Source of the DNA: an uncultured SAR86 cluster bacterium
GTDB taxonomy: Bacteria > Pseudomonadota > Gammaproteobacteria > Magnimaribacterales > AG-339-G14
Assembly: GCA_902595715.1 (NCBI GenBank)
Contig: CACJRI010000005.1
Location: 1-64,000, forward strand
Reading direction: 5' to 3'
Length of the DNA stretch: 64,000 nt
Under the pieces are notes generated by a model. That model was not told the DNA's origin. It saw only the letters and a program-made list of their open reading frames with translations, and did not search any database. Shown here piece by piece: positions 39,035-44,237 of the stretch. A program made the translations under genes and the position numbers. Each line of letters opens with the position of its first letter. The stretch's first letter is position 1.

Positions 39035-39106
39035 GTTCTTTTGACTTAGACTTCGCGTGTTTTCTTGAGTCTTACTATAAAAGATTCATACCCATAAGGA
39101 GGCAAA

Positions 39107-39904
39107 TTGAATCATTACGAAATAATTTATATTTTTAACCCTGACGAAAAAGAGTTGGGTAAATCTCTATTCGATAAAATATTAGAGACAACCAAATCCA
39201 TAAAAGGTCAGATACATAGATCTGAAGAAATTGGCTCAAGAAGATTGGCATACCCAATAAAAGATTACTATCGAGGCGAGTACTTTTTGATCAACTTGGA
39301 ATGTAATTCCTCTGAGCTAGCATCAATAACCGACCTTTTTAAATTCAATGAAAATATTTTAAGAACATCTGTTTTAAAGAAAAAACAAGCTGAAACTGGT
39401 AAATCGGCTCTTATGGAGCAAACCAAAGATTCTTTGTATGAAAAAGATTCAAAAGATGAAGGCCTTGTTAAAAAGGTTTCAAATGAAGCAAAAGAAGTTT
39501 TATCAAAAGCAGAAGAAGTAGTTGAGGACGCCATTGAAGAAGTCAAAGAAGCTGCTGAAAAAGTAGAAGAAGTAGTCGAAGATGTGGTTGAAGAAGTGGT
39601 TGAAAAAGCTGAAGAGATTGTTGAAGCTGCTGAAGAAGTAGTTGAGGACGCCATTGAAGAAGTCAAAGAAGCTGCTGAAAAAGTAGAAGAAGAAGTCGAA
39701 GATGTGGTTGAAGAAGTGGTTGAAAAAGCTGAAGAGATTGTTGAAGCTGCTGAAGAAGTAGTTGAGGACGCCATTGAAGAAGTCAAAGAAGCTGCTGAAA
39801 AAGTAGAAGAAGTAGTCGAAGAAGTAGTCGAAGAGGCCAAGGAAAAAGCAAAGGGAGTTTTTGCAAAAGTTAAGAACGTTTTTAAGGCAGATAAGAAAAA
39901 GTAA
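39107..39904 (+). CDS. rpsF: 30S ribosomal protein S6 with about 165-aa acidic repetitive C-terminal extension
   Basis: MNHYEIIYIFNPDE...GSRRLAYPIKDYYRGEYFLINLE; SD AAGGAGG and TTG start; precedes rpsR. Confidence 0.95.
   Translation: MNHYEIIYIFNPDEKELGKSLFDKILETTKSIKGQIHRSEEIGSRRLAYPIKDYYRGEYFLINLECNSSELASITDLFKFNENILRTSVLKKKQAETGKSALMEQTKDSLYEKDSKDEGLVKKVSNEAKEVLSKAEEVVEDAIEEVKEAAEKVEEVVEDVVEEVVEKAEEIVEAAEEVVEDAIEEVKEAAEKVEEEVEDVVEEVVEKAEEIVEAAEEVVEDAIEEVKEAAEKVEEVVEEVVEEAKEKAKGVFAKVKNVFKADKKK
39512..39830 (+). repeat. 120-bp in-frame tandem repeat, about 2.7 copies, within rpsF
   Basis: Units 39512-39631 and 39632-39751 differ at a single base (39573 t vs 39693 a); third copy partial from 39752. 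Confidence 0.97.
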
Positions 39905-39910
39905 AAAAAT

Positions 39911-40174
39911 ATGAGAAGACAAAAAGATAACAAAAGAAGAAATCAGAATCAGGATAACTTTCTAAAGCCTAAAAGAGCTTGTCAATTCACCGCAGCAGGC
40001 GTTGATGAAATTGACTATAAAGATGTTGAGCTTTTAAAAAAATTCATAACAGAAACAGGAAAGATTATTCCAGCACGTATGACCGGTACTAGTGCAAAGT
40101 ATCAACGTCAACTTACCAGAGCCATCAAGAGAGCAAGGCTTTTGGCATTATTACCTTTTACAGATAGTCATTAG
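39911..40174 (+). CDS. rpsR: 30S ribosomal protein S18
   Basis: [49 protein letters not shown]. Confidence 0.98.
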
Positions 40175-42060: not shown

Positions 42061-43128
42061 TTGAATCGTCCGACTTTTGTAGAAATCGATCTGAAGGCTT
42101 TGGATTTTAATCTTAAAAGTCTTAAGAGTTCTGTACACTCTGCAAAATTTTTTCCGGTTGTTAAAGCTGATGCATATGGACACGGCATAGATAAAATTAC
42201 GGAACACATCCAAAACAAAGTTGATGGATTTTGTGTTGCAACGTCTGAAGAGGCCATAAATCTTCGTTCAAAATCAAAAAAACCTATTTTAGATTTGGAA
42301 GGGCCTTACGATTTAGCCGATATGAAGGCTCTTCTCAAAAACAATATAGAGTTTGTTATCCACTCCAGCAGGCAGCTTAATTTTTTAAAACAAATTAAGA
42401 AATTCAAAGAAAGTCATCCGATATGGCTTAAATTTGACTCAGGAATGAATAGACTCGGCTTTTCAATAGAAGATTCTTCAATAATTTTTGAGGAAGTTTC
42501 TAAAAAAACTAACCAAATAGTTTTGATGAGTCATTTTTATTCATTTAAAGGTAATGCAAAACAACTAAAGAAATTTAAGGATCTTGAGAAAAGATGCTCA
42601 TCTGATGAAATATCTGTAAAGAAAAGCCTATGCAATTCTGGCGGCATGATTAATTATCCTGCTTCGCAGAAAGATATTGTAAGACCTGGAATAAGCATGT
42701 TTGGCAGTAGATCAAACTTAAAAGATAAAAACATTAAGCTTGAATCTGTAATGACATTGAAATCAAAGTTCATATCTTTAAAAGTAATTAAAAAAGGAGA
42801 AAAGGTTGGTTACGAAGGGACTTGGCAGGCTAAAAAGCGAACTAAAATAGGTATTTTGCCAGTAGGGTATGGTGATGGGTATCCAATAAACTTGAGCAAT
42901 TGTGGGAAAGTATTGATTAAAGGAAAATTAGCGCCAGTAATTGGTAAAGTCTCAATGGACATGGTTGCAATTGATTTATCCAGTATAAGTAAAATTAGTT
43001 ATAAGGATGAAGTTATTTTATGGGGTAAAGGCCATGAAGTAGACACAGTGGCTAAATATGCTAATAATAGTTCTTACACATTAATGACTGGAATAACAAA
43101 TCGCGTAAAAAAGGTATACAAGTTATGA
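42061..43128 (+). CDS. alr: Alanine racemase
   Basis: FPVVKADAYGHG; GTWQAKKRTKIGILPVGYGDGYP. Confidence 0.95.
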   Translation: MNRPTFVEIDLKALDFNLKSLKSSVHSAKFFPVVKADAYGHGIDKITEHIQNKVDGFCVATSEEAINLRSKSKKPILDLEGPYDLADMKALLKNNIEFVIHSSRQLNFLKQIKKFKESHPIWLKFDSGMNRLGFSIEDSSIIFEEVSKKTNQIVLMSHFYSFKGNAKQLKKFKDLEKRCSSDEISVKKSLCNSGGMINYPASQKDIVRPGISMFGSRSNLKDKNIKLESVMTLKSKFISLKVIKKGEKVGYEGTWQAKKRTKIGILPVGYGDGYPINLSNCGKVLIKGKLAPVIGKVSMDMVAIDLSSISKISYKDEVILWGKGHEVDTVAKYANNSSYTLMTGITNRVKKVYKL

Positions 43129-44237
43129 AAATTAAAGTTTTAAAAGAAACCCCAAGAAACATAAAGGAGTTTCCTGTTGAAAACGAATACAACCTTTCAA
43201 AGGAAGAAGTTACTGATATAGCTGAGATTTTTAGTACTCCTTTAACAGGTTCTTACAATTGGGACTATACGGTTCAAGATAATAGAATCAAAAGACTTTA
43301 CGAACTTGGAAAAGATCTTAATTGGAATGCAGAAAAAGACATCGATTGGGACAGACCTTTACCTGAAAGAGGAGATACACCTCCTCCTATATTTTGGGAC
43401 GATTACGAACCTTATCAAAAGCTCTCCACAGAAGATAAATTCACTTTTATGAGTCATAGGGGAGCTTGGTCTTTAAGCCAATTTTTGCATGGTGAACAAG
43501 GAGCTTTGCTAGTAGCATCGCAACTCGTGTCGTGTGCTCCAACTTTCAATGCAAAGCTTTATGCTGCATCTCAAACCTTTGATGAAGCAAGACATGTCGA
43601 AGCATTTAATAAATATATCCAATCTAGAGTTGGAATTATGTATCCCGTAGGAACAGGTCTTAAGTCATTACTTGATAAAATTTTGACTGACCCAAGATGG
43701 GACCTCAAATTCATTGGGATGCAAATAATCATAGAAGGACTTGCTCTTGCTGCTTTTAATCTTGCGAGACAAGGTACTTTTGATCCTGTTTTTAAAGATA
43801 TGCTTTATCTAATCATTAGAGACGAGGCAAGACACGTGACTTTTGGAGTAAATTATTTAGAGGAGTTTGTAAAAACCCTTTCCGACGAAGAAAGAGAGGA
43901 AAGAGCTCAATTTGCTTATGAGGCTTGTGTTGTGATGAGAGGTAGATTGATGTCTTCAGAAGTATATGAACATTTTGGATGGGATGTAGAAGATGCCATT
44001 GCTTTTCAAAGTAAGTCTGATGTTACAAACAACTTCCAACACTTATTGTTTACAAGAGTCGTACCTAACTTAGCAAGAATTGGCTTATTAACTGACAAAG
44101 TCAAACCTTTGTATGACGAACTAGGTGTGTTGGATTATCAGGACTGGCCAACGGATGGAGAAATTGATTGGGCATCTCTTTCAAGGCCGCTGGATAAATC
44201 GGAAGAAGTAGAAGAAGGTCAGTTTATATCCATCTAA
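43125..44237 (+). CDS. Ferritin-like diiron protein, uncharacterised (AurF/R2-like fold suspected)
   Basis: HGEQGAL, FDEARHVEAF, IEGLALAAF, RDEARHVTFG give a four-Glu/two-His diiron pattern. Confidence 0.7.
   Translation: MKIKVLKETPRNIKEFPVENEYNLSKEEVTDIAEIFSTPLTGSYNWDYTVQDNRIKRLYELGKDLNWNAEKDIDWDRPLPERGDTPPPIFWDDYEPYQKLSTEDKFTFMSHRGAWSLSQFLHGEQGALLVASQLVSCAPTFNAKLYAASQTFDEARHVEAFNKYIQSRVGIMYPVGTGLKSLLDKILTDPRWDLKFIGMQIIIEGLALAAFNLARQGTFDPVFKDMLYLIIRDEARHVTFGVNYLEEFVKTLSDEEREERAQFAYEACVVMRGRLMSSEVYEHFGWDVEDAIAFQSKSDVTNNFQHLLFTRVVPNLARIGLLTDKVKPLYDELGVLDYQDWPTDGEIDWASLSRPLDKSEEVEEGQFISI

Follow-up and report, generated by a model that had tools for sequence, protein, structure and literature searches.

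A repeat-built acidic helical arm on ribosomal protein bS6 in one SAR86 genus, and a similar arm on bS16

The DNA analysed here (the window) is a 64,000-nucleotide stretch from an uncultured gammaproteobacterium of the SAR86 cluster, an abundant surface-ocean lineage. Its source genome, G000, measures 1.21 Mb in 27 contigs, with a completeness of 83%. The locus of interest is rpsF, a single-copy gene in the order rpsF–rpsR–rplI (Table 1). The gene starts with TTG, 4 nt downstream of an AAGGAGG motif, and its product matches the Pfam family Ribosomal_S6 (PF01250) over residues 3–91 (E-value 3.8e-20; 72.3 bits against a curated cut-off of 27). This core is followed by a tail of 172 residues with a net charge of -37. 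A sequence-only reading had described an S6 protein with a long, genetically encoded acidic tail containing a 40-aa unit and a basic end (KVKNVFKADKKK), and all three are present as read. Some details of the open reading frame needed refining: the initiator codon is TTG, the array holds 2.7 copies (Tandem Repeats Finder period 120 bp, 97% matches), and core and linker together reach about residue 115, after which the helical arm runs from around residue 115–117 through the C-terminus. The final 22 residues are basic, with a net charge of +7. Two long antisense open reading frames over the array (39268–39933 and 39503–39922) were attributed to mirroring of the repeat and set aside as artefacts. 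Further downstream in the window, an open reading frame at 43125–44237 carries EARH motifs and encodes a putative ferritin-like di-iron protein.

Table 1. Coordinates of the bS6 locus in the window and of the related genes elsewhere in SAR86
Feature	Position	Strand	Basis
rpsF Shine-Dalgarno AAGGAGG	39096..39102	+	Read from sequence
rpsF (265 aa, starting at TTG), encoding bS6 and its C-terminal helical arm	39107..39904	+	Pfam, orthologues
bS6 core, residues 1–93	39107..39385	+	PF01250 at residues 3–91; dN/dS 0.045
Polar variable linker, ~residues 94–115	39386..39451	+	dN/dS 0.21 (residues 94–119)
Tandem array, 2.7 × 120-bp / 40-aa acidic amphipathic helix unit	39512..39834	+	Tandem Repeats Finder, helical periodicity, unit homogenisation
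Basic amphipathic C-terminal cap AKEKAKGVFAKVKNVFKADKKK	39836..39901	+	GVFAKVKNVF invariant in genus, codons vary
rpsR (bS18)	39911..40174	+	6 nt past rpsF stop
rpsP (bS16) with acidic amphipathic-helix arm	G000:C4, L148:3034-4095		Six-frame search
Free-standing S16-arm homologue, genus g14	L208:596-1237	-	
Free-standing S16-arm homologue, genus g14	L209:789-1427	+	

The product of rpsR, bS18, is the binding partner of bS6. Because rpsR begins so close to the rpsF stop codon, and because no strong or clear Shine-Dalgarno sequence is seen upstream of it (39904–39913), its translation is possibly coupled to that of rpsF, in which case S18 synthesis may depend on ribosomes completing the long S6 tail.

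A feature of the bS6 tail is its α-helical hydrophobic periodicity. In G000 the hydrophobicity peaks at 99 degrees with a moment of 0.48, compared with 0.14 ± 0.03 in 300 composition-preserving shuffles, none of which equals it; the amphipathic character that the earlier reading had offered as one option is thus borne out. The complete arms of the genus peak at 98–100 degrees (3.61–3.67 residues per turn), with moments of 0.43–0.48 against shuffle means of 0.12–0.15, and single units have helical moments of 0.50–0.52 per 18-mer. The repeat unit, as determined by autocorrelation, is 40 aa long in G000, 51 in G003, G010 and G011, 18 in G012 and 48 in G013. These lengths correspond to 11, 14, 5 and 13 turns, so that duplication holds the hydrophobic face nearly in phase, a property that partly follows from 7/11/18-residue sub-repeats and does not require separate selection.

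Profile searches agree with this picture. The S6 protein weakly matches amphipathic-helix Pfam families, namely apolipoprotein, YtxH and phasin: the match to Apolipoprotein A1/A4/E (PF01442) scores 32.1 bits (1.1e-7), under a curated cut-off of 90 bits, and that to phasin (PF09361) scores 18.8, below the family cut-off of 24.9 and with a repetitive sequence. Three shuffled S6 tails gave no Pfam family match, which indicates that the matches reflect the helical pattern. Structure prediction for the isolated tail (mean pLDDT 78) gives one helix of 75 and another of 68 residues, an arrangement similar to a helical hairpin or bundle. Its similarity to the designed bundle 4tql (TMq 0.82) has a non-significant E-value, and Foldseek returned no significant fold match for the predicted tail. 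A full-length AlphaFold2 model of bS6 built from six sequences was poor (mean pLDDT 49). With its biased, repetitive C-terminus, the protein also falls into the class of low-complexity ribosomal tails. A search of the repeat for an RNA element found nothing beyond two snoRNA matches that, at 22 bits, fall short of the gathering score of 50 and were put down to chance, and no DNA match was found among 50,697 phage records that would point to a phage or mobile origin. One match from Ignavibacteria (L147), a 140-aa open reading frame of YtxH-like appearance, shares composition alone with the tail and was set aside.

The arm is found throughout the genus. Among its 16 genomes (G000–G015), eight have a complete S6 gene, and all eight encode the arm with the same cap, in proteins of 185–290 aa in total; this range implies that no exact length is required. 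The tails terminate in KKK, KK or KSD. Four assemblies are broken inside the tail: in G005, G006 and G009 one contig stops just past the linker and the next starts inside the cap, ahead of rpsR, and in G007 only the repeat and cap side of S6 is present. Since the locus breaks assemblies, the lengths given may be underestimates. The remaining four genomes (G002, G004, G014 and G015), each less than 90% complete, have no S6 match. The tail is thus present in 12 of the 12 genus members with a readable locus, and alignment of the orthologues found no close relative lacking it, in keeping with the sequence-only reading, which had ascribed it to a lineage. The sister genera g2, g3 and g4 have acidic S6 tails of 53–93 residues without repeats or clear helical periodicity, those sampled being indistinguishable from shuffles. 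Helical z scores are 4.6–13 in the complete genes of the genus compared with at most 2.6 in the other sampled relatives. Other SAR86 families have S6 tails similar to those of the sister genera, with the exception of f4/g7, where S6 ends at 94–95 aa. In a survey of 370 genomes across the class, the S6 open frames among the matches listed reach at most 256 aa, counted from stop to stop. Because the sister genera have shorter, non-periodic acidic tails, the helical form of the tail is a genus-level innovation.

The arm evolves under constraint while its repeats turn over. In six close S6 genes, dN/dS is 0.045 in the core, 0.21 in the linker (residues 94–119) and 0.10 in the arm, a value that repeat homogenisation could bias downwards; over the final 45 residues of all eight complete genes it is 0.08. 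The cap sequence GVFAKVKNVF is invariant across the genus though most of its codons vary. Repeat units differ by 0.6 per 54 nt within a genome compared with 4.7 between genomes, so the arrays undergo homogenisation or renewed duplication whereas the pattern at protein level persists. The contrast with the linker, the non-repeated cap and the S16 arm, which is without such length turnover, all point the same way: the S6 arm is under purifying selection.

A six-frame search of G000 with the S6 arm revealed one other gene, rpsP, which encodes bS16 and is followed by rimM, trmD and rplS. In the genus, S16 is 347–353 aa long; its arm takes up about 207 residues, and the net charge beyond residue 90 is -59 to about -60. 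The S16 arm has helical z scores of 7.6–11.5 and a dN/dS of 0.08, compared with 0.34 in the S16 linker, and it exceeds the Phasin_2 (PF09361) cut-off (2e-10; 41.2 versus 24.9), its sequence being repetitive. It is present in 15 of the 16 genus genomes, broken within the arm in G012; no S16 was found in G008. The sister genus g3 also carries the S16 arm. In the remaining sampled SAR86, S16 tails are Pro-rich and acidic, mostly (AEEAP)n, without helical periodicity. At the S16 loci, contigs of many SAR86 end in or near the tail (for example G012:C2:1-483, G040:C12, G025:C10 and G065:C12); assemblies seem to break repeatedly at these repeats, and the true tails may be longer than stated. In one genome (G091, L192), the (AEEAP)n tail changes to an Arg/Ser-rich frame, probably through a frameshift within the repeat, either an assembly error or real.

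When the S16 arm was itself used as a query, free-standing homologues were found in five genomes of the SAR86 genus g14; the gene adjoins an open reading frame resembling the end of sbcB (putative). Along most of the g3 S16 arm, identity to the free protein is 56–61% (E-values 3e-36 to 3e-41). Their global alignment scores 517; shuffles preserving the order of hydrophobic, polar and Gly residues reach 273 ± 20 and the best rotation at most 476, which indicates colinear homology beyond shared composition. The S16 arm of the genus studied here (g1) is more distant from the free protein (346 versus 280 ± 19 in shuffles). Like the S16 arm, the free homologue exceeds the Phasin_2 cut-off (8e-11; 42.5 versus 24.9), again with a repetitive sequence. 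In all 17 S16 genes read, the Met at the fusion point is preceded by GAGG, AAGGAGG or AAAGG (L148:3457-3475 and 16 equivalents), and the free g14 genes have AAGAGG at the matching position, their likely start coinciding with the conserved Met. The ATG and Shine-Dalgarno-like motif kept at the fusion point suggest that bS16 probably captured a free gene by fusion with its ribosome-binding site retained, and that a separate free product may still be made from rpsP via the internal start. The opposite direction, fission in g14, is possible, as is horizontal transfer of the arm gene, given the patchy distribution.

The relationship between the two arms of the genus is less direct. The S6 and S16 arms resemble each other more than phase-preserving shuffles do, with scores of 310 versus 218 ± 15 (global) and 320 versus 234 ± 13, values that internal repetition inflates. 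Their nucleotide similarity shows no excess over synonymous-codon shuffles; recent DNA copying between the arms was therefore rejected, the protein pattern alone exceeding shuffles. The S6 arm has no significant match to the free g14 protein. A common origin of the S6 and S16 arms is thus no more than suggested.

Our tentative proposal is that one SAR86 genus has replaced an acidic bS6 tail with a capped helix arm acting as a spacer. The tandem array, which preserves helical phase, would supply acidic amphipathic helices ending in the conserved basic cap; these would self-pair into an antiparallel hairpin or a small bundle, with the Val/Ala/Ile face buried and Glu outward. In solved ribosomes, bS6 sits on the 30S platform by bS18/bS21 and the 16S 3′ end, and its C-terminus faces the solvent side (PMC10085706, PMC9976891), so the arm would project from there and serve as a polyanionic spacer. 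Its basic cap may dock back on rRNA, on a protein nearby or on some other acidic surface. The bS16 arm may act likewise from the 30S body, and together the arms would give the solvent face a net of approximately -95 charges outside the conserved cores (-37 from S6 and -59 from S16). Charge and position, from which alone we infer the function, suggest a spacer that lowers nonspecific contacts among ribosomes, mRNA and nucleoid. The arms could also bias access to the mRNA exit and anti-Shine-Dalgarno region next to bS6–bS18; in Flavobacterium the 16S 3′ end is held in a platform pocket formed by bS21/bS18/bS6 (PMC10085706, PMC9976891).

The S16 data also raise the possibility, somewhat doubtful as a whole, that a captured free helix protein yields both a tailed bS16 and a free helper from rpsP, that this type of arm spread to bS6 in one genus, and that the arms have a dedicated role on the 30S subunit. 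If so, the genus would have two long conserved 30S arms and a free helper protein made from rpsP.

Several other explanations were weighed against the spacer proposal. In the first, the S6 end would be an exposed and permissive site where Glu/Val/Ala slippage, in expansion and contraction, is tolerated, selection purging only harmful versions that aggregate or shift frame and the tail having no specific job. Tandem repeats may grow by slippage without benefit, the arrays turn over fast, as the similarity of units within a genome shows, and total S6 length varies over a wide range. Low-complexity tails on S6 and S16 are also widespread among bacteria, and E. coli can dispense with S6 (PMC6821194). 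Against this stand the lower dN/dS of the arm than of the linker, the invariant cap with its varied codons, a helical face that stays in phase despite differing unit lengths, and the presence on S16 of a similar arm that is strongly constrained and hardly varies in length. We consider such expansion rather unlikely as a full account; it is a serious alternative where the exact length is concerned, but a weaker one for the cap and the helical pattern.

The main functional rival is binding to a membrane or hydrophobic surface, since phasin and apolipoprotein are the closest profile families. Here the arms, in the manner of apolipoproteins, phasins, LEA proteins and Vipp1-type helices, would lie on a membrane, lipid or hydrophobic aggregate and tether ribosomes, a use that the sequence-only reading had also raised, with the cap assisting. 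The helical moment of the units, the basic amphipathic cap, the weak apolipoprotein match of the S6 arm and the above-cut-off phasin matches of the S16 arm and free homologue are consistent with this idea. However, strongly acidic helices are unfavourable for anionic bacterial membranes and matches to amphipathic-helix families are generic, making such binding unlikely. In one specific form, as coats of PHA granules, it was rejected: no PHA synthase (PhaC_N) was found in the genomes of 41 relatives, a Caulobacter control being positive.

Less probable still is an intermolecular coiled coil, in which the arms of S6 and S16 would join one another, a second ribosome or some basic partner, serving to link 30S domains or in ribosome dimerisation or hibernation. 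If fully helical, arms of 145 and 207 residues, at 1.5 Å per residue, could span the ribosome; the two arms co-occur in the genus and resemble each other beyond phase-preserving shuffles, and the C. acnes bS16 extension bridges to uS4 (PMC10085706). Both arms are nevertheless strongly acidic, which makes direct pairing electrostatically poor and, with a net charge near -40, disfavours simple homodimeric coiled coils; moreover, g3 has the S16 arm without the S6 helical arm.

E. coli RimK adds about four Glu to bS6 (PMC11957791), and the sequence-only reading implied a contrast with RimK, the lineage perhaps hard-coding an acidic appendage. That contrast is not supported: RimK_N (PF18030) is absent from all 16 genus genomes (G000 being 83% complete and several relatives more than 90%) and from the rest of the family, in which the sister genera have S6 tails that are shorter and ordinary. 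Of 151 genomes covering the order, only 28 carry PF18030, among them some relatives without any S6 tail (G042). The one weak match checked in the genus, to the RimK-like ATP-grasp family PF08443, proved to be glutathione synthetase. The absence of RimK_N and the Glu-rich tail would fit an encoded substitute for polyglutamylation, but the C-terminal Glu acceptor is missing from the genus S6, which ends in basic residues, not poly-Glu, and the tails are helical and far exceed the few residues added in E. coli. The RimK-less sister genera with ordinary tails, and a tail that usually ends in lysines, mean that a coded stand-in for polyglutamylation explains the arm poorly, and we regard a RimK substitute as very improbable. 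That the arm is an assembly or annotation artefact, mis-joined or out of frame, is barely credible: repeat arrays do interrupt contigs and can collapse during assembly (G005, G006, G007 and G009), but the same protein, cap and frame recur in independently assembled genomes and selection is measurable on the arm.

These genomes are small (~1.2 Mb), yet the two conserved acidic arms together take up about 380 residues in every 30S subunit. Given how abundantly cells produce ribosomal proteins, this cost argues for a use. The free homologue, the conserved internal start and the relatives with and without the arm make a vague class of low-complexity ribosomal tails testable. Nothing on SAR86 ribosomal tails was found in a search of one open-access library of papers.

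S6 and S16 extensions are already known, and the probable capture of a gene by S16 with its start retained is the more novel part of these results. Extensions of the S6/S16 type occur across bacteria, and M. pneumoniae has a helix-forming S6 extension (PMC9534751). That of Mycoplasma pneumoniae is likewise long, encoded, C-terminal and helical, and has been seen on ribosomes in cells (PMC9534751); compared by description, it belongs to a distant lineage, and its account mentions no tandem array of acidic amphipathic units and no basic cap. The C. acnes bS16 extension of 65 residues on uS4 (PMC10085706) likewise extends bS16 over the 30S body, but is, again by description, far shorter than the genus S16 arm. 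Ala/Glu-rich S16 tails are known from many bacteria (PMC6821194). Such low-complexity S16/S6 tails occur on the same proteins, are acidic and resemble the Pro-rich (AEEAP)n S16 of most SAR86, whereas the genus arms are nearly Pro-free, Val-rich and helical-periodic, and the one on S16 has a free-standing homologue. The bS6 that RimK polyglutamylates in E. coli and Pseudomonas shares the added acidic charge at the bS6 C-terminus, whereas the genus arm is encoded and helical, has a basic end and occurs in a family lacking RimK_N. Finally, phasin, apolipoprotein and LEA-type proteins share amphipathic, Ala/Val/Glu-rich repeats with 3.6–3.7 residues per turn; the genus arms differ in being fused to ribosomal proteins, with no PHA synthase found in relatives, and S6 scores below the curated cut-offs of these families.
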